Both the position numbers and the translations under genes were made by a program. Of a stretch of DNA of 64,000 nucleotides, positions 47,233 to 64,000 are shown piece after piece. Under the pieces are notes generated by a model. That model had not been told where the DNA came from. It was given only the letters and a program-made list of their open reading frames with translations, and ran no database searches. Each line of letters starts with the position of its first letter. Position 1 is the first letter of the stretch. This stretch comes from Clostridia bacterium (lineage in GTDB: Bacteria > Bacillota > Clostridia > TANB77 > CAG-508), in contig JAFROW010000008.1 of assembly GCA_017429505.1 (NCBI GenBank), forward strand, positions 1-64,000, read 5' to 3'.

Positions 47233-47700
47233 TTACTCGCCAGCTTCCCAGATTTTCTCATTTGCCCACTCGCGCTGAGGAGTGGGGTCTCCCCCATAGG
47301 GGATCTCAGGAATGTCATTAATGTTAACTTCTACGGGTTGAATCACCACGCCATCGGGGATCATTTCCAAGGATTCGTACGCTTCCTGACGTTCCTCGTC
47401 CGGCTTAAAGCCGTCTTCGCCTTCTGTGTATGCACCACCTGTATAATAGGCTGTTTCTTCCCCTGATTCGTTAGCTATAATGCCAACATTTTGGTTGTCC
47501 TTATATACTTCTGTCAAATATGAACCTCCTTCGTCATATGTATCCTCATGGTAGTTAGAGCCTTCCAGACAGGAATTTTCCTCCTGATAGGAGGTAGACC
47601 CATCCAAGCGCATCTCGCAGGCCATTGCCGGCAGAACCAGTGTCATCACGAATGCCAAAACAACTGCAACAATCATCAGTTTCTTCATAATTTTTTTCAT
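47233..47700 (-). CDS. Secreted protein, high-GC gene, unknown function
   Basis: A 155-residue protein from the ATG at 47700, which has AAGGAG seven bases upstream; a longer frame to 47742 lacks an RBS. The signal peptide is clear (KKIMKKLMIVAVVLAFVMTLVLPAMA, cleavage after AMA, then CEM). The mature part is acidic, rich in Glu, Gly and Tyr, with YEESLE-like and YYTGGAYTEGEDGF segments and no recognised domain. Base use is near balanced, with GC-rich third positions, in contrast to neighbours; the terminator is also GC-rich. It therefore looks horizontally acquired, perhaps from a higher-GC gut Firmicute. It has its own strong promoter, with direct repeats upstream. Confidence 0.8.
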   Translation of the reverse strand: MKKIMKKLMIVAVVLAFVMTLVLPAMACEMRLDGSTSYQEENSCLEGSNYHEDTYDEGGSYLTEVYKDNQNVGIIANESGEETAYYTGGAYTEGEDGFKPDEERQEAYESLEMIPDGVVIQPVEVNINDIPEIPYGGDPTPQREWANEKIWEAGE

Positions 47701-47775
47701 GTCTTCTCCTTTCTCCATCGTTTTCAACGATTGAGGTTGCAAAATTGGCTGAACAACTATATTTACTACAATTCT

Positions 47776-47901: not shown

Positions 47902-48192
47902 TTATTTGTTATTATAATTGCTCACTATCTCTGATGGAATTTGATCAAGTTCTTTTTCATAACCTTCTCTTTCTCTTTTTAACCTATCAATTTGAAATCT
48001 TAATTCTTCTATAATTGAATCTTTTTCAAATATTATTTTTTTATTTTCTTTTTCAAGATCCCTTGCTTTTTTTAAATATTCAGTTTTAAGATTTGCAATC
48101 TTTTTTTCATTTTCCTCATGTCTTTTTTTCAATTTTTCATTATACTTTAATAACCTATTAAAATTAAATTTTACAAATTCTTCTTTTAACAT
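47902..48192 (-). CDS. Small coiled-coil protein (paralogue 1)
   Basis: A 96-residue, strongly charged alpha-helical protein with heptads from about residue 15 to 80 (NEKLKKRHEENEKKIANLKTEYL...). The C-terminal stretch LKREREGYEKELDQIPSEIVSNY resembles the end of the next gene upstream (QLNNIPFSVRKMY), so the two are paralogues. No membrane segment. It is the last gene of the 47.9-62.5 kb cluster; AAGGTG precedes the ATG. The function is unknown; a scaffolding or partner-binding role is guesswork. Confidence 0.75.
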   Translation of the reverse strand: MLKEEFVKFNFNRLLKYNEKLKKRHEENEKKIANLKTEYLKKARDLEKENKKIIFEKDSIIEELRFQIDRLKREREGYEKELDQIPSEIVSNYNNK

Positions 48193-48317
48193 TTTTACAC
48201 CTTTTCCCCTTCTTTATAATATCTTTAAAACTATATTTCTTATATCAAAAATATATCCAAATTAAAATATATTACCAATAAAGTCACAATCTTAAATTCC
48301 ATTAACCTCATAATTTT

Positions 48318-48614
48318 TTAAAAACTAATTTTTTTATACATTTTTCTAACAGAAAATGGAATATTATTAAGTTGTTTTCTCAAACTATTTGTTTCGTTTT
48401 TCAAATCTTGTAACTGAATTTTTAAAATATTTATTTCATTATCTTTTGAATTTATTATTCCATCATACCTTTGAGCATATTTTTGTATAATATTTTCACT
48501 TTCTTCTATCAATTGCTGAGTTTTATTATAGTCATCGTTTGTCTTGTTTTCCATTAAAACAGCGAAATTATAATGTTTTATAAAATCTTGTTTAAATTGT
48601 TCATCTATTACCAT
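48318..48614 (-). CDS. Small coiled-coil protein (paralogue 2)
   Basis: A 98-residue helical protein: FKQDFIKHYNFAVLMENKTNDDYNKTQQLIEESENIIQKYAQRYDG..., then a coiled coil ILKIQLQDLKNETNSLRKQLNNIPFSVRKMYKK. The pattern at the end (helix, short acidic or Asn segment, IP, hydrophobic tail) is shared with the gene at 47902-48192. It is soluble. AGGAG lies 12 bases before the start, somewhat far. It stands 103 bases after the SGNH/beta-helix gene, the widest spacing in the cluster apart from the next gap. Confidence 0.75.
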   Translation of the reverse strand: MVIDEQFKQDFIKHYNFAVLMENKTNDDYNKTQQLIEESENIIQKYAQRYDGIINSKDNEINILKIQLQDLKNETNSLRKQLNNIPFSVRKMYKKISF

Positions 48615-48717
48615 ATTTTCTTAAGCTCCTTTTAATTATTTAGGTTTTTAATCAAGGTTCTACCTATAAACCATTATTTAAAAATATGTTACTTTATAAA
48701 TATTTCCATTCCAAAAA

Positions 48718-51522
48718 TCATCTTTCTTTACTCATACTTATATGTTCAATAGCTTTATAAAAATTATTTAAGGTATAATATCCTCCCTTATATTGAAAAC
48801 TTTTTGAATTAGGTTTCTCTATTTTATCGTTAAATTTAAATTCATTATTTTTTTCAAAATCAATATCATAACACAATTTTTCGGGCATTTTAATATTTAT
48901 AACTCTAACTTTTCCTTCTTCGTCTGAGATAAATTTGTTATTTTTTATTGTTACATTGTTGCACTTTGTAAGAGTAAGCATTTCCGAGTCTTTGCTACCA
49001 CAATTCTGTAATTCATTACCTTCAAAAATAACTTTATAAACTGTTCCTCTTTTTTCTTCAAATCCGCCAATCTGGACACCATATAAACAATTTAAAATGT
49101 AATTATTTTTTACTGTAATATTCTCTGTTTCTCCATTTTTTGTTCCAGAATATGCAGTGTTTGCTATTTCTGCACCTATTTCAATTCCGCCCTCACATAA
49201 ACTTACTGTATTATTTTCTATTAAAATATCTTCCCCACCATCTACATAAATTCCGTAAGCTGAATCTGGATCATAAGGAGATTTACACTTACTAACATTA
49301 CAATTTCTAATTGTACCATTTCTTGGTCTATCTAACTTCTTATCTTCACAAGTACCTTGATTTCCACAAATACATATTCCAATATTTGATTTTACATTAT
49401 TTGAAGTAATCATAACGTTTTCTATTAAAAAGTTTGTAATATTGCCTTCAAATGAAATTACTTCTGAGAATCCTGCTGCAACATCTTTACACTTGCAATT
49501 TTTAACTACTATGTTATTAATTGGAGTAATACTGCTTCCTACAACATAAATTGCATTAGAGCCTTTATCTGGATCTTTTTCATGCACACATCTTATATCT
49601 TCAAATGTACAATTATCAATTGTAATATCTGAAGTATTATCTCCATAAACCTTAACTCCTTGAGAATTATCTGCTAACATATGTGCAAATACAAATCCTT
49701 CTACATATATTTTTTTTGAATTTTTTATTGAAAATAAGCTTCCACTTAGATTTTTTCCATCTATTATAACTTCTCCTTCTGCTTTAATGGTTATATCTTG
49801 TTTATTATGTATTTTTACTTTTTCATTATAGTCCCCTTCTTTAACAATTATAGTATCACCTGGTTGTGCTTTTTCTACCGCTTCTGAAATAGTTTTATAT
49901 GTTCGTTCATCTTCGCTATCTTCTTTAGATACATAATATATATTTCCATTATTATTTTGAGTGTCTGCACCAGTGTTTTCGGTAGATTGATCAGTTGTAG
50001 AGTTCTGAGATACGTTTTGATGATTTTTTAAATATATTTCTTTTTCTACATCTTGTATAGCTTTTTCTATATTTTCAATCAGCTTCTTTTGTTGTTCTGG
50101 GTTTACTATATGTATAGCAGCATCTTTATTTCCATAAACTTCATCTTCTTCACCTATTATGTCTCCATTTTCATGTGCTAAATTATGTTTATTGTTTGTT
50201 ATTTCTATATAATATGCATAATCTAGCTTGCTACATAATTCTTTACTATGTTCATTAAATTCTTTTAGTTGATTTCTTCCATTTTCATCAAACCTATTTG
50301 GAACATATTCTTCTTGAACCAAAATAATTGCATTAGGATATTTTTCGTGAGCTTCTTCTATTAATTTGTCCATATCACTCTTTACTAAATCGTTAACTCC
50401 CATAGATATGTATACTCTTGTAATAGTAGTATTTTCATTTGCAGATTGCATCCATTTTATTCCATCAGCTGTTGTTGCGCTATCTACTGCATAATAGTTT
50501 TCTTCTTTAATACTTTTAGGTAATAAATGCTTTATTCCATTCATTCTAGAGTGAGAGATTATGACCATGTTTTCATTGAAAAAGTCTGAAATATCTCCTG
50601 TGAATGGTTTTCCTTCAATTGTTTTCGCCTCAGAATTATTTGTGTCTGTTGCTTGAGTTTGATTGTCAGATTGGGTTTGAGTTTGGTCTAAAGTTTGAGA
50701 TAAATCTGTATTATAATAATATAAGCTTCCATCTTCTATTTCTGGAAATACTAGTGGCTCATCTGTATAATCTAAATAAAATTTCCAACCATAGTTTCCA
50801 AAAATCAAAGTTCCAATCATTCCATATAAAGCAAGTCTAAAATTTCTGTTTTCTTTTTCTTCTCTTATTTTGTTCTCTTCTCTTTTTAATTTCCATTTAT
50901 TTAAAGTTCTTTTTATAAAGCCTTCTTTTTTTGGTTCTATTCTTTTTAATTGACTGTCACTTTTTTTTGTTGGAATTTCTTCTTTCTTCTTATCTCTATT
51001 CTGTATAATAGCTGTATCTTCGCCTTTAGTTTCACTTTTATTATCTTCTTTTCTTTTTTCAGAATCAGATTTGACTACATTTACAGCTTTTTCTTCTACT
51101 ATTCCTTCAGAAACTATTTCTCTTTCTTTTGAATCAACTTCAACAACATTTACAGCTGTATCTTCTACTTTTTCATCAGGAACTATTTTTCTTGTTTTTT
51201 GTTTTTGCTTTGATTGTGTTTTTGCCTGCTTGGTTAAATTACTAGGATTTTTTTGTCCTTTTATTATCTCATCTGGATCTATTCCAAATTTTCTTATAAA
51301 AACTTGCTTTGTAGGATATATATATGGTGAATGAATTGACTTTCCTCTTTTATTTAAAAACTCAATTTTATATTTAGAAGATTCTTTTTTCACTTTTAAT
51401 TCACAGACTTTTTCAAGCTTTTTTCTTAGTTCATAAAAATCTTCCCTATCACTATATTTAAAATCAAAGTATTTTTTATTTTTTTCTATTATATCCCCTT
51501 TTTTACTACTATACGTAGACAT
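48718..51522 (-). CDS. Membrane protein with SGNH-like and parallel beta-helix domains
   Basis: A 934-residue type II membrane protein. Residues 1-228 are cytoplasmic and highly charged, with an internal duplication (EDTAVNVVEVDSKE and EEKAVNVVKSDSEK at about 120-157). One transmembrane helix lies at about 229-247. Residues about 318-490 resemble an SGNH hydrolase: Ser in IISHSRMNG (S323), GVND at 375-378, and DAAIHIVN with the His at 471; the usual GDS is replaced by SHS. Residues about 528-880 are a right-handed parallel beta-helix (repeated ITIDNCTFEDI, ILIENNTVSLCEGGIEIG, ITVKNNYILNCLYGVQIG), the fold of polysaccharide lyases and carbohydrate-binding proteins. Probable extracellular esterase plus carbohydrate binding. 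The catalytic assignment is inference. Confidence 0.78.
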   Translation of the reverse strand: MSTYSSKKGDIIEKNKKYFDFKYSDREDFYELRKKLEKVCELKVKKESSKYKIEFLNKRGKSIHSPYIYPTKQVFIRKFGIDPDEIIKGQKNPSNLTKQAKTQSKQKQKTRKIVPDEKVEDTAVNVVEVDSKEREIVSEGIVEEKAVNVVKSDSEKRKEDNKSETKGEDTAIIQNRDKKKEEIPTKKSDSQLKRIEPKKEGFIKRTLNKWKLKREENKIREEKENRNFRLALYGMIGTLIFGNYGWKFYLDYTDEPLVFPEIEDGSLYYYNTDLSQTLDQTQTQSDNQTQATDTNNSEAKTIEGKPFTGDISDFFNENMVIISHSRMNGIKHLLPKSIKEENYYAVDSATTADGIKWMQSANENTTITRVYISMGVNDLVKSDMDKLIEEAHEKYPNAIILVQEEYVPNRFDENGRNQLKEFNEHSKELCSKLDYAYYIEITNNKHNLAHENGDIIGEEDEVYGNKDAAIHIVNPEQQKKLIENIEKAIQDVEKEIYLKNHQNVSQNSTTDQSTENTGADTQNNNGNIYYVSKEDSEDERTYKTISEAVEKAQPGDTIIVKEGDYNEKVKIHNKQDITIKAEGEVIIDGKNLSGSLFSIKNSKKIYVEGFVFAHMLADNSQGVKVYGDNTSDITIDNCTFEDIRCVHEKDPDKGSNAIYVVGSSITPINNIVVKNCKCKDVAAGFSEVISFEGNITNFLIENVMITSNNVKSNIGICICGNQGTCEDKKLDRPRNGTIRNCNVSKCKSPYDPDSAYGIYVDGGEDILIENNTVSLCEGGIEIGAEIANTAYSGTKNGETENITVKNNYILNCLYGVQIGGFEEKRGTVYKVIFEGNELQNCGSKDSEMLTLTKCNNVTIKNNKFISDEEGKVRVINIKMPEKLCYDIDFEKNNEFKFNDKIEKPNSKSFQYKGGYYTLNNFYKAIEHISMSKER

Positions 51523-51549
51523 CTTTCTTCTCCCTATAATTATTCTTAA

Positions 51550-53367
51550 CTATTTTTCCTCTCTAGGATCAACATCAGTTTTCACTAAAATTACATCTTT
51601 ATAATCTCCACTATCTACTACATTTGAACTTATTTTATTATAACTTATTGGAACACGTAAATGTTGTAGTTTTCTTTGTCTATCTAATTCTCTTCTTATA
51701 AATTCACTTTGTATTCTTTTAGCCTTTTTTCTTCCTTTTCTTTTTTTATTTGCATTTACGAAAAGCACAACAGCTAATTTCGCAATATTTTGCGCAGTTT
51801 CCTTGGCTTTCTTTATTGCATCTGTCTTCCATATAAAACCTTTAGTTATTATATTACTTTGAATTACAACTTCATCTTTTTTCAAATCTTCTTCCATATC
51901 TTCTTCTATAGATAATGAACCATCTTCTTCATATGTAATTATTTCTTTCTTTTTTTCCTCTATTTTCATTGAAATTGCAGGCTGATTACCACGTGTATCA
52001 ATAACACTATTTATTTTTCTTAAATAACTTCTATAATTTCTCAATTTTTCTCCAATAGGGCCTTCTTCAAAACTATGTTTAGCTTTATCATATAAATAAT
52101 CATAGAACTCATTTGGTTTTCCGTTAAAGTCTCTTACTAATCGTATCATCTCTTTTGTGTATGGCATATTTAATTTTGCCCATTCTCTTCTTGCAGATTT
52201 TGTTTCATATCCTCCAAATGGATTAGTTATTATTATTTCCCAATCTATATTATCATCTTTAAAATCTTTTTTTTCATCTTTTGTTTTAAATTCATATCCT
52301 AAATCCATTAGTTCTCTTAAAGTCTTATGTGCTCCATATTCTATAAACTTAATTTGTTCTCCTGTTGGTATATAATTTCCATCACTATCAAGTTCAAACC
52401 CTTTTTTTGTTTTTCTTACCTTATTTTTCCTACATAAAATTTTTATTGTTTGACTAGATATTTTGTTTAAAAATTCACATTGTTTCTCATTAAGAAAAGC
52501 TACTGACTTAGTTTCCTTATCAACTGCATAATATTTTTCACCATCAAAAAGTATAGTTATAGAGTTATATTCATCCTTCATCCAATCTGTTAATTCTTTT
52601 ACTGCAGTTAAACTATATTTATTTCCTTCAGAATCAAGTTCTTGCATATAAGTTTCTAGAATATAATTTATTTCGTTTGCTAATCGATTTTCATTTGTTA
52701 AACCTTGCATGCTTGAAATATACCTTGAAAACTTATATGGAAGACAATGTCTTTGTCCATTAAACTCTACAATAAATGTTCCATCTGTTAATACATCTAT
52801 AATATATTTAGGTACATTTTTGTTGTTTATAGTTTCTAATGTATCTGTATCTAGCTCTTTATCTGAAGGATTTAAAAACATGTTTTTTATAATGTTTTGT
52901 TTAATAGCTTTTATATCTCTATATATTGAGTTTTCATCATCTTTATCATATATATCAAGTTTTTCTATAAGATGTATTAATTCTTGATCAGTAACATATA
53001 TTTCTTTTCCTTTTAAACTAATCTTACATATTCTATTTTTATCTATTTGAATAGAATCTCCAGACTCTTTATATAATTCAATTATTTGAAATGGAATTTC
53101 TCCATTTTCTGTTTTTTCAAGTTCTTCACGAAAAAATCTTCTATATGATATTTGTTGACTAGTTCTTCTTGCCTCTTCTACACTTTTTGCCATTGGAACT
53201 TGATCACATTCTTTAATAAATTCTTCCATAGCTTCTATAAGAGTAAGTTTTAACTTTTTTAGTTTTCTTCTATCCGCTTCTGTATTGCTTTCTATTCTAA
53301 TCATATTAGCATTTATATTTTTCTTTCTATTACTAATAAATTGTAAAAGCTCTTCTAAACTTGGCAT
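51550..53367 (-). CDS. Unrecognised 605-residue cluster protein
   Basis: The family is not recognised. It is predicted mainly soluble and charged. The N-terminal part (1-100) is helical (FISNRKKNINANMIRIESNTEADRRKLKKLKL). The middle contains repeated beta-strand motifs of the type GTFIVEFNGQRHCLPYKFSRYI and ITILFDGEKYYAVDKETKSVAFLNEKQ, which look like two related small domains. The C-terminal part has one weakly hydrophobic stretch (AQNIAKLAVVLFVNA, about 538-552), followed by a strongly basic segment (KKRKGRKKAKRIQ). It could be a cytoplasmic partner that contacts the membrane or nucleic acid. GAGGAGG before the ATG fixes the start. It is the only large product of the cluster without a clear export or anchor signal. 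Confidence 0.7.
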   Translation of the reverse strand: MPSLEELLQFISNRKKNINANMIRIESNTEADRRKLKKLKLTLIEAMEEFIKECDQVPMAKSVEEARRTSQQISYRRFFREELEKTENGEIPFQIIELYKESGDSIQIDKNRICKISLKGKEIYVTDQELIHLIEKLDIYDKDDENSIYRDIKAIKQNIIKNMFLNPSDKELDTDTLETINNKNVPKYIIDVLTDGTFIVEFNGQRHCLPYKFSRYISSMQGLTNENRLANEINYILETYMQELDSEGNKYSLTAVKELTDWMKDEYNSITILFDGEKYYAVDKETKSVAFLNEKQCEFLNKISSQTIKILCRKNKVRKTKKGFELDSDGNYIPTGEQIKFIEYGAHKTLRELMDLGYEFKTKDEKKDFKDDNIDWEIIITNPFGGYETKSARREWAKLNMPYTKEMIRLVRDFNGKPNEFYDYLYDKAKHSFEEGPIGEKLRNYRSYLRKINSVIDTRGNQPAISMKIEEKKKEIITYEEDGSLSIEEDMEEDLKKDEVVIQSNIITKGFIWKTDAIKKAKETAQNIAKLAVVLFVNANKKRKGRKKAKRIQSEFIRRELDRQRKLQHLRVPISYNKISSNVVDSGDYKDVILVKTDVDPREEK

Positions 53368-53400
53368 TTTTTACCTCCTCGTTTTTTATCTTGCTTATTA

Positions 53401-54804
53401 TTATCTATCTATACCTTTTTCAAATATTTTTCCAACATTCGAATTTTTGGGTTGTATCGTTGTATTTTCTAAAAAGTTATTTTCAAAAGCTGTTGTCGTT
53501 GTACTTCTTTCAAATGCATTTTTAAAAGCTTTTGTTTTTCTTCCCTCAAATGCATCTTCAAAAGCACTTGCTACTTTTTCTATACCTTTATAATCTATAA
53601 GCTTTGGGTCTAATCTAATATATTCTTTTAGTAGATATGTAGCTGCTTTAGCTCCACTTTCAAACTCTTGTTCATTATAAATATTTACTGTACTTTTTCC
53701 TTTTTTCACAAAAATATCATAGCTTCCTTTAAGATAATAAGCCATTTGTGGTTCAATATCATCAAATTTATAATCTGTACCATTTTCTGTATTATATTTT
53801 TCTAAAAATTTTACATAATCTTCCTTTAAAGAATATGACCATTGCATTACTCCAAAAAATTTGAATGCATCTCTTGAAACTGCATTAGGATTAAGTCCTG
53901 ATAAAAATAGCATATCTACTAGTGTTCCTATATTTTGTTCATCTTTTACTCCTTCACTTTTTAAATATGCATAAGCTTTAGATGCTACTTCTATCTGTTT
54001 GTCTGTTAAATTTAAAGTATTTTCATTTTCTAATTTTTGTTTTGCTTCTTGATAGTACATATATTTATATATTGCTTTTTCATATTTTTCTTTCAAAAGT
54101 TGTCTATCTTCTTTACTTATTTCTCTACCAATGCCTAATTCTTCATCTATAATACGATCGAAATTTTGATTTTTTATCATCCTGTCCCAAGGCACCTTTG
54201 CAAACCAAAGAGGTCTTATATCTATATTATTATTATTTCCTATATTGTATTTTAACGGAAATCTATCTACTTTCCCCTCTATTCCTGTATTACCTTCAAC
54301 TGTTGAAAACTTGCCGTCTTTATAATCTATAACTATTCCCATATGATCTATAAAGTCAGGATTACTATCTGAATCGAAAAATACAAGATTTCCTGCTTGT
54401 GGAATATGACTTGCATCATTTTTTACTATTAATCCTTGATCTTTATACCATTTTAAAAATTTAGCAATGTTTAAATATTTAGCTCCCTGTGGTATTACAT
54501 CTTCTGATATTCCACTTCGTTTTGCACTGTCCATTATAAATTCTGCAGAACTTACATCACTTATTTCACCTATATGGCTTTGAGCTTCTTTTACATATCT
54601 TTCTATTAAAAGTTGTCTGTCTTTTTTACTTATGTCTCTACCAATGCCTTGTTCCTCATCTTCATTTTGAGTATTGTTTTGATTTACAATGCTTACATGT
54701 TGTAAATTTGGTGTTAATGCAACCATAATTGCTGCTATAATTCCTGCTAATCTAACACTCATTCCTCTTATTATTCCTTTTTTACTTTCATTTTTATTTT
54801 CCAT
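53401..54804 (-). CDS. Degenerate CHAP plus lysozyme-like protein (probable pseudo-enzyme)
   Basis: A 467-residue protein from the ATG at 54804, which has AAGGAG ten bases upstream; a longer frame starts at 54825. N-terminal signal/anchor (about 15-30, SVRLAGIIAAIMVALTP). Residues about 80-200 match the CHAP domain of the next gene upstream (IPQAGNLVFFDSDSNPDFIDHMGIVID), but the catalytic Cys is Ser (SSAEFIMDSA). Residues about 265-370 match its phage-tail lysozyme domain (FGVMQWSYSLKEDYVKFLEKYNTENGTDY), with the catalytic Glu position replaced by Leu. A block, GIGR(D/E)ISK(K/E)DRQLL, occurs twice (about 54 and 224). The C-terminus has AFE-type short repeats. So it is a paralogue that probably binds rather than cuts. 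Confidence 0.78.
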   Translation of the reverse strand: MENKNESKKGIIRGMSVRLAGIIAAIMVALTPNLQHVSIVNQNNTQNEDEEQGIGRDISKKDRQLLIERYVKEAQSHIGEISDVSSAEFIMDSAKRSGISEDVIPQGAKYLNIAKFLKWYKDQGLIVKNDASHIPQAGNLVFFDSDSNPDFIDHMGIVIDYKDGKFSTVEGNTGIEGKVDRFPLKYNIGNNNNIDIRPLWFAKVPWDRMIKNQNFDRIIDEELGIGREISKEDRQLLKEKYEKAIYKYMYYQEAKQKLENENTLNLTDKQIEVASKAYAYLKSEGVKDEQNIGTLVDMLFLSGLNPNAVSRDAFKFFGVMQWSYSLKEDYVKFLEKYNTENGTDYKFDDIEPQMAYYLKGSYDIFVKKGKSTVNIYNEQEFESGAKAATYLLKEYIRLDPKLIDYKGIEKVASAFEDAFEGRKTKAFKNAFERSTTTTAFENNFLENTTIQPKNSNVGKIFEKGIDR

Positions 54805-54831
54805 TTCTTTCAATCTCCTTTTCATTTTTTA

Positions 54832-57228
54832 TTATCTTTCCTCACTTCTAAAGGCTAATCCTTTTTTATTTTCTTCAATTATTTGTCCATAGTATCTTTC
54901 TTTTTTTTCTTCTATCTCTTTATCTTCTGCTTTACATAAAAATTCTTCTACTTGTTTTACAAATTTGTTCCAATCAAAATTAGTAACATCTTTTTCATTT
55001 AATTGTTTTGTATAACTTGATAAAATTATATTTTTTTGATTTTTTTTATTAAAAGATATATTTTTTTGATGATTTTTTATTATATTGTTATAGAACTTTT
55101 GCGCTGTTTCACCTCTGTTTGGATCAATATATTCTGGTCTTTCCCAATGTTCACAAAACCACATTGCTGCTTCTCTTGCATCTTTAAAATCTGTTTCCAA
55201 ATATGCTTCAATTGTACGTTTATCACCATATGTATCTGGATCTCCATATAATAAATAATCCATTTGCACTAAGGTATTTCTCCAATCATAATTAGTGCCA
55301 TGTTCTTTATTATATTTTTCAGTATACTCTAGTAAAGCTGTTTTTCGTCCCTCTGTCCATTGGCAATATCCTATTGAATCATATCCATCAGAAGATTTAG
55401 CTGCTATATGAAATGACGATTCATGATAAATATTTGCCCATATTCCAGCCATATGTATTAAATCTATATTTTTTTGTCTTAAAATATTAGCAACATCTTG
55501 AGCATTTTTTGATTGTTCATTATTAAATCCTAATCCTATGTCTACATCATCTGCTGTTATTTCACCTTTTATTGTTACTTGTGTTTGGCTTTTCTCTTGT
55601 TCTGGTACCATATTATTCCAAGGCACCTTTGCAAACCACATAGGCTTCATTTTTCCACTATTGTCAACTTTATTATCTCCAATTTTATATTTCAAATCAT
55701 ATACTGATACCTTCCCGCCTGTAGTATTTCCTTCAACTGTTGAAAATTTACCTTCTTTTGAATCTGTTACAACTCCTACATGATTTATCCATTCAGAATC
55801 ACCATCAGAATCAAAAAACACAATATCTCCTTCTTGTGGAATATAACTTCCATCATTTTTTACTATTAACCCTTGCTTTTCAAAAAACTTATACATCACT
55901 GCACAACTTGCATATTGAGCTCCCTGTGGTATTACATCTTCAGGCACTCCATTATCATATGCCAAACGCATTATAGCGGCTGCACAATACTGATCTTTTG
56001 CTGAAGAACCTAATCCTAAATATTTAGTATATTTTTCGTCTTCATTTGTATCCCCCTTACGATTTTTAAATGCTTGTACATAATTATGTCTTGCATTTTT
56101 CTGCATTTGAGAAGACGTAAAATTTGAAACACTTTGAGATGATGTGAAATTTGAAACATAATTATTGTTATTATTTGTATAATAGTTTCCACCTTGATAC
56201 CCAATTGCTTCGTCTAATTCTTCTTGAATTGCCAAACTACTGCTTGTTTCTACCAAATCTTTCGTTTCAATATTTATTCCAAAACCATTTAAAGAATATG
56301 TAGTTACATATAGTTTATTTGTATTAATGTCATATTGAACATCTGAGCCAAGTACTCTGTTTTTTGAATCACCTTTTTTATAGTATTCAGAAATACCTTT
56401 TGCATATATATAAATTGGTTGTTTATTTAATGCCATAGAATTTTTCTCATTTATTTGGTCTTTTATTTCTTTTGCTTCAACTTGGTACTCTTTTTCATCT
56501 ATCCAATAAATAGCTTCATTACCTATAAGCTTTATTTCTGTTCCCTTCTTTAATGTTTGCTCACCAAAAGCTTCTGTTTTTATTTTTACATCTTGTTTTG
56601 TTTTAAATGTATTTGCAATATTTAAATCAACATCATTTTTGGAAATTAATGCATATTTATCATTCCTAAAATCATATTTAATTAAATAATAGTCGCCATT
56701 TTCGACTTTTATTTTTCTTCCTGCAAAAAGCTTTTTTGATGGTATTTGTACCATTTTTTGTTCTTCTTTATCAGCAAATTTATATCCAAACATATTACAT
56801 GGTATTGCTTGAATATTACTATCATCTTTAGTCGTAAAGAACCAATACTGTTTTTGCCATTGCAATGCTGTTGCATAAGCTTCAGGAGAAATGTTTTCTT
56901 CTGTCACAGTATCAGGAATTCCCAATGCTTTTCGAAATTTACCCATGTCTCCGAATTCTTTTTTTGCTGTTTCATTTAAGTCAAACATTTTAAATCCAAC
57001 ATTTTCGACTAGTTGAAAAGTTTCATCCGTCATAACATCCCATAATATAGATGGACCGTTATCTATTTCTTTTTCTAGTTCTTCACTTATTTGCTCCTTA
57101 CTTGAAAACTCAAATTTATCAACAAAAGTATGCCAATTGAGTAAAAGAGTAGCTGTTAAACCTGCCAATGCACTTTTTAAAATAATTTTTGGAATTTTAA
57201 TATTTTCATCTTCATTATTATCTTTCAT
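54832..57228 (-). CDS. Membrane-anchored CHAP and phage-tail-type lysozyme protein
   Basis: A 798-residue type II membrane protein. One transmembrane helix (about 12-31); residues 32-340 are an unrecognised extracellular region; an Asn/Ser-rich linker lies at 345-385. The CHAP domain (about 405-535) has Cys415 in DQYCAAAIMRLA and His483 in INHVGVVTD, so an intact Cys/His pair for amidase or endopeptidase action. Residues about 565-720 match the phage-tail lysozyme family: NIYHESSF with Glu603, IGYCQWTEGRKTALLEY and the conserved WFCEHWERP. It is thus a two-enzyme wall hydrolase fixed in the membrane. The start lies nine bases after the 57238 gene; AGGGAAAG is the RBS. Similar enzymes open the wall in conjugation or phage systems. 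Confidence 0.82.
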   Translation of the reverse strand: MKDNNEDENIKIPKIILKSALAGLTATLLLNWHTFVDKFEFSSKEQISEELEKEIDNGPSILWDVMTDETFQLVENVGFKMFDLNETAKKEFGDMGKFRKALGIPDTVTEENISPEAYATALQWQKQYWFFTTKDDSNIQAIPCNMFGYKFADKEEQKMVQIPSKKLFAGRKIKVENGDYYLIKYDFRNDKYALISKNDVDLNIANTFKTKQDVKIKTEAFGEQTLKKGTEIKLIGNEAIYWIDEKEYQVEAKEIKDQINEKNSMALNKQPIYIYAKGISEYYKKGDSKNRVLGSDVQYDINTNKLYVTTYSLNGFGINIETKDLVETSSSLAIQEELDEAIGYQGGNYYTNNNNNYVSNFTSSQSVSNFTSSQMQKNARHNYVQAFKNRKGDTNEDEKYTKYLGLGSSAKDQYCAAAIMRLAYDNGVPEDVIPQGAQYASCAVMYKFFEKQGLIVKNDGSYIPQEGDIVFFDSDGDSEWINHVGVVTDSKEGKFSTVEGNTTGGKVSVYDLKYKIGDNKVDNSGKMKPMWFAKVPWNNMVPEQEKSQTQVTIKGEITADDVDIGLGFNNEQSKNAQDVANILRQKNIDLIHMAGIWANIYHESSFHIAAKSSDGYDSIGYCQWTEGRKTALLEYTEKYNKEHGTNYDWRNTLVQMDYLLYGDPDTYGDKRTIEAYLETDFKDAREAAMWFCEHWERPEYIDPNRGETAQKFYNNIIKNHQKNISFNKKNQKNIILSSYTKQLNEKDVTNFDWNKFVKQVEEFLCKAEDKEIEEKKERYYGQIIEENKKGLAFRSEER

Positions 57229-57237
57229 ATTCTTTCC

Positions 57238-60105
57238 CTATTTTTCTATTTCATTTTGATTGTCTTTATCTTTTTCTCCAAGTTTTCCTATTAATGTAAA
57301 TCGTGCTTCAAGCTCACCTTGAGTTTGTTCTTTTACTTCTGTTCCTAAACATTTTTTATTATCTTCTGTTATTTTTATATTTTCTGGAGAACATATAGTC
57401 ATTTTTTTTCTACCAGTTCTAGCTCCCCATACATATTTATTAGTTGTGTTGTCATAATATATATGTATATCATTTGTTTCTATAAATACTTCTTTCCATC
57501 TATCATTATATACAAGTAAATCTGAACTTGGTATAGTACCTGCAACATCCTTTCCAATAATAAGTTCACTTACAATTGCTGTATTGCCCACAATTAATAT
57601 TTCCCTTCCTGCTTGTACATCATAAGCAGTTCCGTTTTGATCCGTTAATTTAGTATTTCTTATAACTAAAGCAGTACGTACAGTTTTTAATAAACTTCCA
57701 TTATTTACTAATGCATATATTTCTTTTATATTGCCATTTTCATCGACTATTTCATCTTTTATTACTCTACAATTTTTTTCTGCTGTATCAAACTTTGGAT
57801 TTACAGCATAATATGCAGGATACATTTTTTCCGAATTTAGCGAATATAACTGATTTGGATCTTCATAACTACCATTTTCATCACATATTATTCCTTGTGT
57901 ATTTGGCATTGGAATAACCATTGAATATTTCCTTTTTTCTCCTAACAGTCCAGCTACTGTTCCAAATAGTCTTTCCGCAAAATTTGGAATATCTCTTGCT
58001 CTTGGTTCTACTAGATTTTCTCCAGTTGTGTTTAATTTAGATAGAGTTGTAGCACCATTTTGCATATTTACATCATCTATTTTTATTATTCTTACACCAT
58101 CTGATGTAGTTGCACCTTGTCTTGTGTTCAAAGTATTATTATCGCTTGTATTGGCTTTATATATCATATCTCCTACTTCTTTTTTATCTTTTATCTGTGC
58201 CACAATTGCTTGTTGTTGTTCCACATTTAGTTCTTTTTTTGGTTTATAACTTCTTACTTTTGCATCTTTTGGAATTTGCAAATTAAATGTACTTATTGTA
58301 TTTCCTTGAGTATCTTGAATCACATAAGGCACAATTTCAACATTCTGATATATTTCCGGAGTAATTACACCATGTGCTGATACCGAAAACTTTACACCAT
58401 TATTATATATAACACTATAAACAATTCCAAATTTTCCAGCTCTTGCAACTCTAATAGTTGACTCTGTTGTCGGGAATTTTTTAGAATTATCTTGCCACCA
58501 ATTTGAAATAGTATATTTTGGTTGAATTGCTACAATAAATTCTTCTATATTACTAGTTTTCATAGAATGGTGACTTAATTTAAATATATCAGCCCTAACA
58601 TCAATCCCTTCTTCTAAAAGCTCTTTTTCTAAACCTGCTTCAATATCTCCACAAGTTAAGTAACGAATTTCTTTTCCATCTAAAGTTTGAACAGATATCC
58701 TTAATACTAAAGATTTATTATTTGTATAAGATTCATTATTATAATCTTTTCTTTTGTTATTTGGGTTATAAAGTACTTCAAATTTAGCCTTTCCTATATA
58801 AAATGTATCATATTGTTTTAGTCTTACTACTCTTATACCCTTTTGTTTTGCAATTCTTTCTAACTTAGAATACATACTTTCTTTTCCTTCAGGCAAATAT
58901 AATGTATCTACTTTATAATTTTTCATTAAATATACTGCATTGCCCCAATGATCATCATGATTATGTGTAATTAATATATCAAAATGTTTATCTTTATAGT
59001 TTTTATCATTCATAAATTTAATAACAGAATCTCTTAAATCATCTTCCGAGGTATCTATCATTAAATAATGTCCATCACTTCCTATCATTGTCATATCACC
59101 ATGTGCTGTTCTTTTTATTTTCGGTTGTCCAGCACACTTTATGTTAGCACAATCAATTGTCATTAAAGTTTCATCTTGAGTAAAATTTACTATTTCAGTT
59201 GTATTGGTTTGTTCATTATTGGTTGCTGTTTTACTATTTGTTTCTGTTACATTATCAGGTAATTTTTCATTATTAGATGAATGCTCATTATTTGTATTAC
59301 TTAAAACATAACTAACATCAATCTCTTTTTCCTCATAGACTAATTTTCCTTTATCTGGATCAAAATATGCCTTAGTTGAATTTGGAAAGTCAAAAACCTT
59401 AAGGTGTATTATTTTTCTTTCTATACCTTTAGTACTCTTTGAATTAGCTTCGTGAACTTTCCCTATATTCACACCTTCTCCTTTTTTATGCCCAGAACTG
59501 CATGAAACTTTTTTACCATTTCCTAAATAAAAATATACATGATTATTACGTCCACTTCCGTGATGTTCCCAAATAATATCTCCTGGAGACGCATTAGAAT
59601 AATCCCATTTTTCTCCTTTTTCAAAGTGAGCTACATCTACAGAATTTGGACAACCTCCATAGCCCCATTTTTCAGATTTAACATGTTCATTTAATATTCC
59701 TTCATGTTCCAATACTCTAAATATATACCAAGAACAATCTGAATAGCCTTTTTCTAATTTACCATGGTTTCTAAAATCTCCATGAGAAGAATCTATATAG
59801 GTAATATGTCCTCCCTTTTGAGTCGAAAAACTACATGCATAATTTAAAGTATCCTCAAGTTTTTTGATTGCTTCCAGATATTTTTCTGCATCAGTATTTG
59901 AGTTTTCTTCTATTTCTGTATTAGATTTTCCATCATTATTAGTAGTATTTGCCTCATTATTTTGTTCTATCTCTATAGCATAAACATTTTCTCCTATCGG
60001 ATTACTTGGTAATTGTGGAGTACTTCCTAGCATTGTTAAAGCAAGAGCTGCTGTACCCAATCTTATTCCTCTTTTTTTTGATTTTTTTTCAATTGGATTT
60101 TTCAT
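57238..60105 (-). CDS. Secreted NlpC/P60-like peptidase fused to a metallo-beta-lactamase domain
   Basis: A 955-residue protein. The signal peptide or anchor is at about 13-30 (GIRLGTAALALTMLGSTP). Residues about 75-235 form a papain-like NlpC/P60 or amidase domain with Cys124 in GYSDCSWYIFRVL, NASPGDIIW and His189 in NNHVYFYLGNG. After a low-complexity linker, residues about 312-580 are a ComEC-type metallo-beta-lactamase domain: THNHDDHWGN (380-389), Asp487 in LTCGDIEA, and SHHS at 511-514. The C-terminal 370 residues are unrecognised and predicted extracellular. The combination of a wall peptidase with a metallohydrolase on one secreted chain is unusual. Second gene of the cluster, 23 bases after the first; AAGGAA is the RBS. 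Confidence 0.8.
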   Translation of the reverse strand: MKNPIEKKSKKRGIRLGTAALALTMLGSTPQLPSNPIGENVYAIEIEQNNEANTTNNDGKSNTEIEENSNTDAEKYLEAIKKLEDTLNYACSFSTQKGGHITYIDSSHGDFRNHGKLEKGYSDCSWYIFRVLEHEGILNEHVKSEKWGYGGCPNSVDVAHFEKGEKWDYSNASPGDIIWEHHGSGRNNHVYFYLGNGKKVSCSSGHKKGEGVNIGKVHEANSKSTKGIERKIIHLKVFDFPNSTKAYFDPDKGKLVYEEKEIDVSYVLSNTNNEHSSNNEKLPDNVTETNSKTATNNEQTNTTEIVNFTQDETLMTIDCANIKCAGQPKIKRTAHGDMTMIGSDGHYLMIDTSEDDLRDSVIKFMNDKNYKDKHFDILITHNHDDHWGNAVYLMKNYKVDTLYLPEGKESMYSKLERIAKQKGIRVVRLKQYDTFYIGKAKFEVLYNPNNKRKDYNNESYTNNKSLVLRISVQTLDGKEIRYLTCGDIEAGLEKELLEEGIDVRADIFKLSHHSMKTSNIEEFIVAIQPKYTISNWWQDNSKKFPTTESTIRVARAGKFGIVYSVIYNNGVKFSVSAHGVITPEIYQNVEIVPYVIQDTQGNTISTFNLQIPKDAKVRSYKPKKELNVEQQQAIVAQIKDKKEVGDMIYKANTSDNNTLNTRQGATTSDGVRIIKIDDVNMQNGATTLSKLNTTGENLVEPRARDIPNFAERLFGTVAGLLGEKRKYSMVIPMPNTQGIICDENGSYEDPNQLYSLNSEKMYPAYYAVNPKFDTAEKNCRVIKDEIVDENGNIKEIYALVNNGSLLKTVRTALVIRNTKLTDQNGTAYDVQAGREILIVGNTAIVSELIIGKDVAGTIPSSDLLVYNDRWKEVFIETNDIHIYYDNTTNKYVWGARTGRKKMTICSPENIKITEDNKKCLGTEVKEQTQGELEARFTLIGKLGEKDKDNQNEIEK

Positions 60106-60128
60106 TTTTTATTCCTTCTTATTATCTA

Positions 60129-62510
60129 TTAATAATCTATCTCATCTCCGTCCCATTCTTCTCCTAATGCATCAAATGAGCTTTTTTCTGTGTCATCTGT
60201 AGTTTCTTCACTTTCTTCTAAATAATCTTCTTCATCTTGACTTTCATACTCTTCTTCGTAACTATCTTCATCTTCATATTCATCTTCTGTTTCATCATCA
60301 AGTGAATATTCTTGGTCATTTTCTTGCGCTATTAAATCTTTAAGAAGTTCTCCGTCTTTTAGACTAATACTACCAAAATGATCATTTTCATCTTCTACAG
60401 TATATCCAGAGCTATGTTCACATAATGTAATATGTACTCCTTCTCCGAATATAAATTCTGGAATACCTTCTATATTAGTTGATGGATAAACATACAATTG
60501 TCCAATATTCTCATCTATCGTATATTCTCCCACTGGTGTATATCCTTGAGTTATATTATCTGTCATTTCTTCTTTTTTGTATTTATCTATACTTGAATTA
60601 ATTTTTCCTGTTTCTTCTCCTTCTATTGTAGTTACCATCATTCTTGGTTGTTCATTATTTTGTTCTTCTGACATTATTCCTATAGCATTAATCTTTTCTC
60701 CATCTGCTGTAATCTCTTTACTTCCTAAAAAAGTCATTCCGCTTGGAATTATATTCTCTTCTTGTTCAGCTGTAGTAACTTCTTCTTTAGTTGTTAAAAA
60801 TGTTGGAATTAATGTAACTAATGATATTTTATTTTTTCCATCATTATATTCCTCCATTATATAATCACCTATTTCCATCTTCTCGAGTTTTTTTGCTGAT
60901 ATTTCACTTGTATAAACATTATCACCATCATTATAGAAATAAGTATAGTAATCATTTTCATTTGCATCTTGAGGATTATAATCTAAAACATCTATGTAAC
61001 TTCCACCTTCTATCTCAATGTCATCTGTTACGTCTAATACTGTATTTCCATCTACACTCATTCTAGTTATTACAGGAGTTATCTCATACCTATCTACATT
61101 TTCTACAACTCCATCTTCTGTTATAATAACATTATCTTCTGGAATTACAAATTCATCTCTATCCATTTGAAGATAACCTAATTTTGTTTCTTTAGAAATA
61201 GGATCTGTATATTTAACAATATAATATTTCCTATTATCTTCTTGTAAAACTTCTGGCATTTCTTGTTTTGTGTCTTCAAAAGCCTTCTCTTCCTCACTTC
61301 CTAATTCAGTAACAGTTTCTGTAGATGTATTTTTTAAAGAATCTGATTTATTATAAAAAAAAGTTTTTACAGATAAAAATGCAGTTATCATCATACCTGC
61401 TGCTCCTAAGATAAGTATAGGCATTCTTTTAAACTTTCTATCTACTCCGATATTTTTTGGTAAATTTTTTAACCTTCTTTTATTATTTTGTTCTGTAAAA
61501 ATATCATTTACTATACTTGTTGCTTTTGTTTTTACTTTTGATGTTTGATAATTTGCAATCAATGTTTTTAAATCTTCTACACTTATTTCACACAAATTTC
61601 CATAATTATCAAAAACTCTATCTTTTTTTAATTTTTCATATTCATCTTTTTTTAAATCTAAAATTGGTTGAAGAATTTTTTTCATTAAAACATCTTTACT
61701 AATCTCATTTTCTTCAATTGCAAGAACAAGTTTTTTTAAAACAGATATATCTCCATGTTTATTAACTATTTTCGAAATCATATTAACAAATTCTTTTAAA
61801 TGTACTGGTTTATCAATACATTCAAATTTATCCATAAAATGCACAGCAATTTCTAAAATTTCATTTCCTTTCGGATCACATGCAATCTTGCTAATAACAA
61901 TTACAAAATTACGATTATTAACTTTATTATTGTCACCAAATTTTTCACTTATTGCTTTTATAATTTTCTTAGTCTCTTCTAAATTAATTTTTGAGTAACT
62001 TTTTTTTACTCCTTCAATAATACCTTTCTCAATATTATATACATAATCTCCTTCTGCATCTCTTTCTGAATCACTTTTGATATAGTTATAATCATATGTA
62101 TCATACAAATAATTTGTTAAATATGCTAAATCTTTGTATATAGATTCACACTTAGATTTTCTTACTATTTTACTTTCTAAAAGTTCTCTTAAAACTTCTA
62201 CTGAATTATCATCTATATGTTGAACAGAATCTATACTTTCTGCGTTTACTTTTTTGTTATACTTTAATGCATCAAAGTAAATTCCTCGCCATGGAAAACG
62301 TTCTTCATTTTCATTGTTACTACTTATGTATTCTTGAGATTGTTCTTGTTCTTGAGCTTCTAAATCTGATGAATTTATTGATTGTGCATCTAAATTATCT
62401 GATGAAGAATTTGATTGTGGTTGTTCCTCTCCATTATTAAATTCAACTATTACCTTTCTCGCTCCAACTTTTTGAACTTGTGTTAAAAAATCTTGTTCAT
62501 TAATATTCAT
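60129..62510 (-). CDS. First gene of cluster: bitopic membrane protein with acidic tail
   Basis: A 793-residue protein, family not recognised. Residues 1-360 are cytoplasmic, with a Ser/Gln/Glu-rich linker (25-70) and a helical domain (75-345) whose repeated hydrophobic helices (ILEIAVHFMDKF, LKEFVNMISKIVNKHGDISVLKKLVLAIEENE) look like alpha-solenoid units. One transmembrane helix lies at about 363-385. The outside part (400-725) has several beta-strand-rich units (YYIVKYTDPISKETKLGYLQ, GSYIDVLDYNPQD), and the tail (about 727-775) is nearly all Glu, Asp, Ser and Tyr. GGAGGAG lies six bases before the ATG, a very strong site. Its position behind the only clear promoter suggests it is the cluster's organising membrane protein; that is inference. 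Confidence 0.75.
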   Translation of the reverse strand: MNINEQDFLTQVQKVGARKVIVEFNNGEEQPQSNSSSDNLDAQSINSSDLEAQEQEQSQEYISSNNENEERFPWRGIYFDALKYNKKVNAESIDSVQHIDDNSVEVLRELLESKIVRKSKCESIYKDLAYLTNYLYDTYDYNYIKSDSERDAEGDYVYNIEKGIIEGVKKSYSKINLEETKKIIKAISEKFGDNNKVNNRNFVIVISKIACDPKGNEILEIAVHFMDKFECIDKPVHLKEFVNMISKIVNKHGDISVLKKLVLAIEENEISKDVLMKKILQPILDLKKDEYEKLKKDRVFDNYGNLCEISVEDLKTLIANYQTSKVKTKATSIVNDIFTEQNNKRRLKNLPKNIGVDRKFKRMPILILGAAGMMITAFLSVKTFFYNKSDSLKNTSTETVTELGSEEEKAFEDTKQEMPEVLQEDNRKYYIVKYTDPISKETKLGYLQMDRDEFVIPEDNVIITEDGVVENVDRYEITPVITRMSVDGNTVLDVTDDIEIEGGSYIDVLDYNPQDANENDYYTYFYNDGDNVYTSEISAKKLEKMEIGDYIMEEYNDGKNKISLVTLIPTFLTTKEEVTTAEQEENIIPSGMTFLGSKEITADGEKINAIGIMSEEQNNEQPRMMVTTIEGEETGKINSSIDKYKKEEMTDNITQGYTPVGEYTIDENIGQLYVYPSTNIEGIPEFIFGEGVHITLCEHSSGYTVEDENDHFGSISLKDGELLKDLIAQENDQEYSLDDETEDEYEDEDSYEEEYESQDEEDYLEESEETTDDTEKSSFDALGEEWDGDEIDY

Positions 62511-62550: not shown

Positions 62551-62579
62551 ATTATATCATATTTTCTTTTTTTAGTCAA
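62551..62579 (-). promoter_or_regulatory. Promoter of the 47.9-62.5 kb cluster
   Basis: On the minus strand: TTGACT (62579-62574), 17-base spacer and perfect TATAAT (62556-62551), 41 bases before the start of the first gene. No other comparable promoter was seen in the intergenic gaps of the cluster. Confidence 0.75.
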
Positions 62580-62649
62580 CATAATATCTAAATTTTATGT
62601 ATTAAATTTAATGAGTATTTCCACTAATTAATATATTTTTAAAATTATT

Positions 62650-62685
62650 GTTTACTTTTTCTGTAAACTATGATATAATGTTTAC
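62650..62685 (+). promoter_or_regulatory. Promoter with GTTTAC inverted repeats for the divergent gene
   Basis: TTTACT (62651-62656), 17-base spacer and TATAAT (62674-62679). GTTTAC at 62650-62655, its reverse complement GTAAAC at 62663-62668, and GTTTAC again at 62680-62685 overlap the -35, spacer and start region, suggesting a repressor operator. The start codon is 130 bases further on. Confidence 0.6.
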
Positions 62686-62809: not shown

Positions 62810-64000
62810 ATGTTTATATTATATATTTTTGGACCAATCTTTATTTTTTTACTCTTGATAAAAATCATTTTCAAAAAACCTGGAGAATTATTTGTTGAAG
62901 GCTTGGGGTGGACTGCACTAATAGCATTTCTTATTGTTTTATTTATAGCTGTATTGTCTTTTAGTTTAAAAAAACTGGTTCCATTTGATCCTAGTTTTAA
63001 AGAACCTCTAGCTTTTATTGAAAATTTGATAGATAAATTTCCAATAAAATCTCCATTTTCTGGTTTAAATCCAGGAAATGAAACAGTTCCAAATAGTTCA
63101 TCAAATTCGAATAATTCTAACAATTCGAAAGATTCGGAAAGTTCTGATAATTCAGATAACGAAACTGTAATATCTACAGAGGAACTTTCTGAAATGAAAG
63201 AAGAATTAAATAAAAGGATTTCAGATGTACTTTCCGATGAGACAGAAAAAAATGATAATGTAATAATTAATAGAAATTTCTCAATGTATTGGAGAGATTT
63301 TGGTGCTGACACAAAATGGAACAAAAAAGATTTTGAAAAATATTTTTTCTCTGTATATTCAAAAAAGCTAGAGTTCAATCATATTACTTCGGCTGAAGCC
63401 AAATATCCTAATATTGATTATACTCTTGATCTCAAAGAAAAAAAGGGAAAATTAATATGTACCATTGAGTTTACTAACTCAAAAAAATTCAATGGAACCT
63501 TTAGCCAAATTGAGGACCGATACGTATCAGGTCCTATAGGTCAAAGTAAGCAAAAATCTTCAATATTTAATTCCATTAAAGATTTGTTTCTTGACATGCC
63601 TATGGAAAAAACAAGTAATTCTATGTTTGATGAACATGGTCATTCAGAAGAAATGACTGTGGCAAAACTTTTAAATGAATTAAGTGACCCCATAGTGAAT
63701 GCCAAAAAGAAACAAATTCTTACGGAGTTAGCTACATGTAAGTATTTTTCCGATATCTATACAGTTAAATTGAACGAAAAAATTTATCTGAAAAAAGAAG
63801 GTATAGTAAAAACTAACTTTTCAGATGAAGAGATTGAATCAATTTTTGGTTCAACTAAGAAAAAAGATACCACTGTCGTTAAAAAACCAAGTAGCAAATG
63901 TTATGTTTGTATTACAAACACTCTTTGTTATAATTCATCATCTACAACATCTGCTATTGAATTAATACAAATAGCAGAAAATATTAACTTGGATGGTTTA
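62810..64000 (+). CDS. Divergent membrane protein, incomplete at window end
   Basis: An open frame of 397 codons from the ATG at 62810, still open at base 64000. AAGGAG lies seven bases before the ATG. Two N-terminal transmembrane helices (about 2-21 and 35-55) are followed by a Ser/Asn/Asp-rich linker (about 87-125) and a large domain that I do not recognise, with segments such as NFSMYWRDFGADTKW, KGKLICTIEFTNSKKFNGTFSQIEDRY and KPSSKCYVCITNTLCYNSSS. A minus-strand frame at 62773-63378 is only its shadow. Gene architecture (membrane helix, polar linker, unknown domain) resembles the products of the divergent cluster, with which it shares a 299-base control region (62511-62809), so a common role is likely but unproven. 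Confidence 0.78.
   Translation, partial: MFILYIFGPIFIFLLLIKIIFKKPGELFVEGLGWTALIAFLIVLFIAVLSFSLKKLVPFDPSFKEPLAFIENLIDKFPIKSPFSGLNPGNETVPNSSSNSNNSNNSKDSESSDNSDNETVISTEELSEMKEELNKRISDVLSDETEKNDNVIINRNFSMYWRDFGADTKWNKKDFEKYFFSVYSKKLEFNHITSAEAKYPNIDYTLDLKEKKGKLICTIEFTNSKKFNGTFSQIEDRYVSGPIGQSKQKSSIFNSIKDLFLDMPMEKTSNSMFDEHGHSEEMTVAKLLNELSDPIVNAKKKQILTELATCKYFSDIYTVKLNEKIYLKKEGIVKTNFSDEEIESIFGSTKKKDTTVVKKPSSKCYVCITNTLCYNSSSTTSAIELIQIAENINLDGL

Follow-up and report, generated by a model that had tools for sequence, protein, structure and literature searches.

A cluster of cell wall enzyme genes in a Clostridia genome encodes a hydrolase predicted to be active beside a tandem copy predicted to be inactive

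The window analyzed here comprises 64,000 nucleotides from a Clostridia bacterium (assembly GCA_017429505.1), taken from the start of a contig of 293.5 kb (JAFROW010000008.1, referred to as C7) in a low-G+C genome of 1.98 Mb that carries spo0A. Between positions 47902 and 62510, eight intact open reading frames, designated P1 to P8, lie on the minus strand. Two neighbors among them, P3 and P4, encode related wall hydrolases, of which P3 is predicted to be active and P4 inactive at the same two catalytic sites. We conclude that the finding is real and that it is unusual for this live/dead pair and for its lack of relatives. The genes may serve a secretion machine of the host, form a construction of their own, attack neighboring cells, or have no purpose. 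Wall hydrolases need restraint until the right place and time, and a live and a dead copy side by side, if the prediction is true, would amount to a simple and testable gating device acting in trans, akin to the within-protein case of PrgK described below.

P3 (54832 to 57228, minus strand, 798 amino acids) consists of a borderline N-terminal membrane anchor, an unrecognized part, a CHAP domain (C415/H483/E499), and a phage-tail-type lysozyme domain (E603). P4 (53401 to 54825, minus strand, 474 amino acids) is an anchored tandem copy of the C-terminal half of P3, with CHAP domains 55% identical over 130 residues and lysozyme domains 32% identical over 118 residues. The CHAP cysteine (C415) and the lysozyme glutamate (E603) retained in P3 are both serine in P4 (S93 and S309). 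P4 contains no cysteine at all and is therefore not a working CHAP enzyme, whichever cysteine is catalytic. The CHAP cysteine is kept in P3 and in all three aligned phage or plasmid relatives. The lysozyme glutamate is found in five of six aligned rows (P3, the VirB1-like protein of the same genome, the VirB1-like proteins of two relatives, and one phage protein), the exception being P4; in another alignment it is present in seven of nine rows, with serine in P4 and one row not reaching the site. On the basis of these residues, P3 is predicted to be active at the CHAP and lysozyme sites, and P4 is predicted to be inactive at both. Matches to P3 in four phage records and one plasmid record were confined to the CHAP or lysozyme part.

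The two copies differ by a synonymous divergence (dS) of 0.49 in the CHAP part and 0.84 in the lysozyme part. The reading frame of P4 has been kept open, which is rarely expected under random change: in simulations with 5% random change, a mean of 5.3 stops arose, and zero stops were obtained in 3 of 1,000 trials. P4 also carries an internal duplication of 74 bases (54075 to 54148 and 54588 to 54661, 86% identical), whose copies lie ahead of the CHAP and of the lysozyme part. The nearest precedent found is PrgK of plasmid pCF10. According to the excerpted text of PMC11323569, the muramidase activity of PrgK is lowered by two of its other domains, a degenerate LytM and a CHAP domain in which no activity was detectable, and the nearest database relatives of that muramidase are phage-tail lysozymes. 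The present proteins resemble PrgK, TraG of pIP501, and proteins of genus relatives (loci L113 to L118) in joining a phage-tail-type muramidase, as in PrgK, to CHAP or NlpC domains (PMC11323569, same excerpt), and the predicted loss of both sites in P4 recalls the domains that lower PrgK muramidase activity. In contrast to the PrgK type, the domains predicted to be live and dead here sit on two proteins.

The first-pass annotation of this DNA had described eight minus-strand genes, with gaps of 6 to 33 bases among the first six, and wall enzyme domains in P2 to P4. Both descriptions were confirmed. All of the open reading frames were present, and the intergenic gaps from P1 to P8 are 23, 9, 6, 33, 27, 103, and 125 bases. 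A purine-rich stretch, resembling a ribosome site by eye, lies 5′ of all eight starts. Above the Pfam cut-offs, we detected NlpC/P60 and metallo-beta-lactamase domains in P2, CHAP and Phage_lysozyme2 in P3, and Phage_lysozyme2 in P4; the exception is the CHAP domain of P4, which scored slightly under its cut-off (24.1 versus 26).

P2 (57238 to 60105, minus strand, 955 amino acids) has a weak signal-like start, an NlpC/P60 domain (C124, H189), a metallo-beta-lactamase domain (HNHDDH at 381 to 386, D487, HH at 512 to 513), and an unrecognized C-terminal part of 360 residues. The best sequence match of the metallo-hydrolase was the C-terminal domain of ComEC (partial match to NCBIfam TIGR00361; PDB chains 9vc6 and 9ic4). 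At 68.4 bits against a cut-off of 190.05, and with the match limited to the C-terminal domain, P2 falls outside the ComEC family. That domain of ComEC is a Mn-dependent nuclease (excerpted text of PMC8579336), and our reading of the alignment suggests that P2 apparently shares an Asn in the motif III region with ComEC (same excerpt). P2 differs from ComEC in having no competence channel domain and in its motif II, HxHxDH, where ComEC has Asp for one His (PMC8579336, in excerpt). The metallo-hydrolase domain also aligns with the pneumococcal teichoic acid phosphorylcholine esterase Pce/CbpE, whose HxHxDH motif it contains; however, no choline-binding repeats were recognized in P2 by Pfam or NCBIfam, and P2 carries NlpC/P60. 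Matches to the metallo-hydrolase were found in 19 phage and 29 plasmid records, and the annotated plasmid matches listed were mostly of the ComEC type.

P6 (48718 to 51522, minus strand, 934 amino acids) comprises a charged N-terminal part, a weak hydrophobic segment near residue 230, an SGNH-like part (S325, N377, and H471, assigned by eye), and a parallel beta-helix at about 530 to 840. An SGNH-like part and a beta-helix had been proposed at the outset; signals for both are present but below the cut-offs of Pfam and NCBIfam, respectively. The beta-helix is supported by proteins from 13 plasmid records (7 from Lactococcus) that are 28 to 34% identical over it, and was matched in 1 phage record. 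P1 (60129 to 62510, minus strand, 793 amino acids), which has no family match in Pfam, PHROGs, or NCBIfam, is composed of a part of about 360 residues, one predicted transmembrane segment (about 363 to 381), a part of about 400 residues, and an acidic tail. P5 (51550 to 53367, minus strand, 605 amino acids) is probably cytoplasmic; no relatives of it were found, with no match in Pfam or NCBIfam and only weak matches to PHROGs of unknown families. P7 (48318 to 48614, minus strand, 98 amino acids) and P8 (47902 to 48192, minus strand, 96 amino acids) are both coiled-coil-like, and P8 is possibly a distant copy of P7 (24% identity, E = 0.045). By simple hydropathy, the transmembrane segment is clear in P1 (internal, at 363) and P4, the N-terminal segment of P3 is borderline, and the hydrophobic segments of P2 and P6 are weak. 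The earlier statement that five of the six large products carry a signal or transmembrane segment thus stands clearly for two of them. SH3-like repeats common to P1, P2, and P3, suspected by eye, were unsupported by single-sequence comparison.

To determine how widely these genes occur, we searched genome, phage, and plasmid collections, with two or three candidates scored per genome in the large genome searches. Among 55 and among 385 genomes, P1 was detected in its own genome only, and in the set of 385 the same was true of the noncatalytic parts of P2 and P3. P5 was found in 1 of 55 genomes and in 2 of 391; the second match (genome G715) spans 75 residues with E = 1.6e-4 at an unrelated transport locus, and we took it as chance rather than as a distant relative. 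P2 matched in 52 of 55 genomes, nearly all of the matches listed being to its metallo-hydrolase domain, and P3 matched in 8 of 55, the seven others matching the CHAP or lysozyme domain only. Searches of phages and plasmids by tblastn with P1 and P5 gave no confirmed relative. Exact-short-peptide scans of viral and genome collections yielded no confirmed relative, although diverged relatives would escape such scans, and nothing on this gene combination was found in the open-licence literature at the level of titles and abstracts. Recurrence of the gene set in related genomes, which the first-pass annotation had proposed as a check, was therefore not observed. Its suggestion of a new trans-envelope or contact-dependent device is a hypothesis only: a machine would be supported mainly by conservation, of which there is no sign, and the claim of a new machine lacks the backing that recurrence in other genomes would give.

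The cluster lies within DNA that is absent from the closest relative found, G133, whose FemAB-family protein and Spo0A are 99% and 97% identical to those of the present genome. The flanks are shared: to the left, DNA identity with G133 extends as far as 47058, and to the right it starts again at 68203/68339 of the contig, at tRNA-Gln and tRNA-His. About 21 kb (roughly 47.06 to 68.2 kb of the contig), including P1 to P8, has no counterpart in G133. The unit had been taken to end at 62510, which does not hold for this stretch, since DNA without a G133 counterpart continues to about 68.2 kb. Because the flanks are shared and the DNA between them differs, the stretch is either an insert relative to G133 or was lost there. 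This same-site comparison involves G133 alone; the spo0A stretches of five further genomes of the genus were examined, and no tRNA-Gln/His was found there. At the same site, G133 carries different DNA, which encodes a serine recombinase together with a MobA-type relaxase. This 14-kb element (L097:5252-19682), on the tRNA-Gln side, also has genes that look radical-SAM-like and FAD-oxidoreductase-like by eye. Between the two ends of the present island (46.9 to 48.0 versus 67.7 to 68.7 kb), no exact match exceeds 11 bases. A piece of 91 bases adjoining tRNA-Gln (C7:68203-68293) shows 87% identity to an internal segment of a G133 gene, named AraC-type by eye, and is perhaps a scar of what preceded the island. 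A foreign base composition for P1 to P6 was considered and rejected: third-position G+C and codon preference fall inside the range of 15 core genes, and overall G+C is inside that range or slightly below it.

To the right of P1, the island encodes three membrane proteins of 428, 263, and 133 amino acids, an SPFH protein, and a protein that resembles a lipoprotein, with a lipobox read by eye. The SPFH domain is the sole family recognized among these five. The gene for the 428-amino-acid protein is divergent from P1, starts on the plus strand within the window (62810 to 64000), and ends at contig base 64096; like its neighbors, it belongs to the stretch absent from G133. A search with a query from the right-hand part matched 251 of 385 genomes; among the matches listed from other genomes, all were in the SPFH part, and the genome's own lipoprotein was not among the matches reported. 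Inspection of the genes right of 64000, which had also been proposed, revealed neither a known conjugative element nor a prophage. In this genome, neither of the two outcomes that the first-pass annotation had named as refuting, scattered homologues or such an element to the right, was seen.

The promoter proposed ahead of P1 (62551 to 62579, minus strand, TTGACT-17-TATAAT) is present as a site with 11 of 12 matches, 40 bases ahead of the gene. Three sites with at least 11 matches occur in 17.6 kb, against 1.45 expected by chance, and precede P1, P9 (a gene left of P8), and the gene at 46546. Chance is possible, given that 18 of 100 random sequences contained at least three such sites, and we regard a real promoter at 62579 to 62551 as plausible. 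The divergent 428-amino-acid gene has a promoter-like site of the same layout (62651 to 62679, plus strand) with a GTTTAC-N7-GTAAAC palindrome. A layout of 40 bases, GTTKACT...TGATATAATRTTKA, is common to the promoters of P1, the 428-amino-acid gene, and the lipoprotein gene (window 62551-62679; C7:65954-65982). The pair formed by the 428-amino-acid gene and the lipoprotein gene agrees at 20 of 29 noncore positions and ranks first of 5,879 pairs in 177 kb. The P1 promoter agrees with each of these two at 18 of 29, but the genome is A+T-rich and agreement at up to 19 positions occurs in pairs that are unrelated; the SPFH gene promoter is less like the other three (agreement of 12 to 15). The promoter layout is no more than suggestive of a shared regulation of the P1 operon and the right-hand genes. 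P9 itself (47233 to 47742; 169 amino acids, signal-like start, weak or subthreshold family matches) has its own 12/12 promoter-like site and is probably separate from the P1-P8 unit. No noncoding RNA was matched by Rfam at gathering thresholds between 46 and 64 kb.

That the cluster fits no standard system, as originally proposed, was supported by further searches. In P1 to P9 and the five right-hand proteins, Pfam and PHROGs recognized neither an ATPase nor a pilin nor any phage structural gene, Pfam recognized no relaxase or integrase, and no PADLOC family was found. A defense island was rejected on the latter ground (0 PADLOC families for P1 to P6 and four right-hand proteins). A prophage was likewise rejected, since no capsid, portal, terminase, or tail structural genes were recognized by PHROGs and tblastn of P1 and P5 gave no phage match. 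In PHROGs, the matches of P2 to P4 run through their metallo-beta-lactamase, CHAP, and lysozyme domains and in part concern tail-protein families; those of P7 are weak and of the coiled-coil kind, with virion and tape-measure families among them (E = 0.012 and 0.07); P5, P6, P8, and P9 give only weak matches to unknown families; the SPFH protein matches a "lipoprotein" family; and P1 matches none. The CHAP domain of P3 has the same Cys/His/Glu layout as gut phage CHAP endolysins, from which P3 and P4 differ in their membrane anchors (borderline in P3), in the lysozyme domain behind CHAP, and in the absence of recognized phage structural genes around them.

The relation to type IV secretion systems (T4SS) was examined further. 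On a second contig (C8), the genome has a T4SS locus at 288 to 295 kb (L128) with a VirB4-type ATPase, PrgI, a VirB2-type pilin, and a VirB6-like protein; the last has subthreshold NCBIfam matches to conjugal-transfer membrane proteins. A detached trio of VirB8-like, VirB1-like (1,272 amino acids), and 436-amino-acid genes lies at C8:119.5-126.6 kb (L035), beside TelA, Halogen_Hydrol, and VWA-domain genes, and is homologous to genes beside the ATPase in relatives (homology checked within each family). The VirB8-like protein was named by gene order and the VirB1-like protein by domains; VirB6- and VirB8-like proteins in relatives were named by gene order and topology. The genus relatives encode giant proteins that combine Phage_lysozyme2, CHAP, amidase, and further wall domains, at chromosomal loci that also specify a VirB4-type ATPase and VirB6- and VirB8-like proteins. 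One of these, in genome G009 (L113:4387-10023), is a VirB1-like chain of 1,878 amino acids with Phage_lysozyme2, C39 peptidase, Beta-lactamase2, Amidase_3, and CHAP domains.

The NlpC domain of P2 is 46% identical to the genome's own VirB1-like protein over residues 47 to 258 (E = 3.7e-25), the sole strong NlpC match in 55 genomes. By hhalign, the catalytic domains of P2, P3, and P4 match VirB1-like wall hydrolases with probabilities of 62, 80, and 76%. In single-sequence queries against six T4SS protein families, the probability did not exceed 2% for P1, P5, the N termini of P6 and P3, and the C terminus of P2, or 2.1% for the five right-hand proteins. For VirB6 and VirB8, the values were below 1% for ten P1-P6 queries and at most 1.7% for the right-hand proteins; for VirB4-type ATPase, they were below 1% for the same ten queries, and Pfam recognized none in P1 to P9 and the right-hand proteins. 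Unlike VirB1-like proteins of T4SS, the island enzymes have no recognized ATPase, coupling protein, or relaxase beside them, and most of the operon shows no sequence relation to such systems. T4SS membership was rejected because no VirB4-type ATPase or relaxase was recognized, and the cluster is not filed as a T4SS. According to the excerpted text of PMC12857230, sequence is a poor guide to T4SS subunits apart from VirB4 and the coupling protein, and our queries were single sequences; P1 or the 263-amino-acid protein could therefore be a diverged form of VirB6 or VirB8. These results indicate that wall-opening domains of the VirB1-like kind can occur where no secretion machine is recognizable beside them, a point of importance for any call of a conjugation or secretion system that relies solely on these domains.

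The best-supported reading, tentative and judged slightly below even, is that the island and its operon are lineage-specific and that the operon encodes a membrane-anchored and secreted set that acts in cis to remodel the producer's own wall, P4 serving P3 as a regulator or scaffold. P3, held at its N terminus, would cut glycan strands with its phage-tail-type muramidase and peptides with CHAP, and P4, anchored and dead at both sites, would most likely restrain, position, or recruit P3. Secreted P2 would cut stem peptides with NlpC/P60 and hydrolyze a phosphodiester, in teichoic acid or DNA, with its metallo-hydrolase. P6 may deacylate or bind wall glycan through its SGNH and beta-helix parts, P1 may bridge cytoplasm and wall, and P5, P7, and P8 may act inside the cell. 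In support of wall remodeling in cis are the compact gene order with ribosome-site-like sequences, the domain matches, and the membrane segments in P1, P4, and, weakly, at the start of P3, which suggest action from the membrane on the own wall. The catalytic residues kept in P3 and lost in P4, the open frame of P4, and the precedent of PrgK also speak for it. Several observations weigh against it. P1 and P5 are without a recognizable domain, and P7 and P8 give coiled-coil-like signals only. The envelope location of P2 and P6 is uncertain because their hydrophobic segments are weak. The ratio of nonsynonymous to synonymous divergence between P3 and P4 (dN/dS) is 0.7 to 0.8, so that constraint on the copies looks weak, and the lack of recurrence in other genomes leaves no evolutionary evidence of the genes working together. 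A bolder version, which we consider unlikely, is a self-contained trans-envelope wall-opening assembly of an undescribed kind, in which P3 would be gated in trans by P4 and act with P2, P6, and bitopic P1, in one regulon with the 428-amino-acid membrane protein, the lipoprotein, and an SPFH scaffold, and without an ATPase or nucleic acid transfer gene.

Among the alternatives, the operon could be an accessory wall-opening module for the host's chromosomal T4SS, whose VirB8- and VirB1-like genes lie apart from its ATPase. The presence of the ATPase, PrgI, pilin, and detached trio in the same genome, the relation of P2 NlpC to the VirB1-like protein, and the VirB1-like matches of the P2, P3, and P4 catalytic domains all point this way. 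However, VirB4 and its neighbors are found in both near relatives searched (G133 and G057) and P1 in neither, the noncatalytic parts tested have no profile relation to the six secretion protein families, and the scanned stretches of C8 did not show the layout of the island promoters; we regard this module as rather unlikely. A role in antagonism seems similarly doubtful: lytic enzymes would attack neighbors, the metallo-nuclease would degrade released DNA, and P4 would be a self-protecting decoy. The catalytic domains do resemble endolysins and tail lysozymes, the metallo-hydrolase of P2 is nearest the nuclease domain of ComEC (PMC8579336, in excerpt), and the operon sits in an accessory stretch, whereas membrane segments in P1, P4, and, weakly, P3 argue against it, and no secretion machine, receptor-binding part, or PADLOC family was recognized.

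The genes might instead have been carried in by a mobile element using the tRNA-side hot spot, as its cargo or as a decayed remnant of it, accessory and possibly without coherent function, an explanation that we also hold to be fairly improbable. In its favor are the serine-recombinase/relaxase element at the same place in G133, the phage relatives of P2 and P3 domains, the lack of relatives for most parts, and the P3-P4 dN/dS; yet no recombinase or relaxase was recognized in the island, no end repeat exceeds 11 exact bases, all eight frames are intact, and P1-P6 codon preference and G+C are near or within the range of the core genes. Very unlikely, in our judgment, is a system for surface-glycan or matrix processing in which the beta-helix, SGNH, and phosphodiesterase parts would trim capsule or teichoic acid and the wall enzymes would be secondary. 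The P6 signals and the HxHxDH motif of P2, with its alignment to the pneumococcal esterase, fit this idea, but no glycosyltransferase, flippase, or polymerase was recognized in the island, and the SGNH match of P6 is below the family cut-off.

Two further features lie left of the island in the window. A YoeB/RelB toxin-antitoxin pair (Pfam) at 45771 to 46302 is located between FemAB-family and small multidrug-export genes, where the gap in G133 holds a different gene. At 35599 to 37935, a protein of 778 amino acids begins, by eye, like a pilin, and Pfam identifies DUF285/leucine-rich-type repeats in it.

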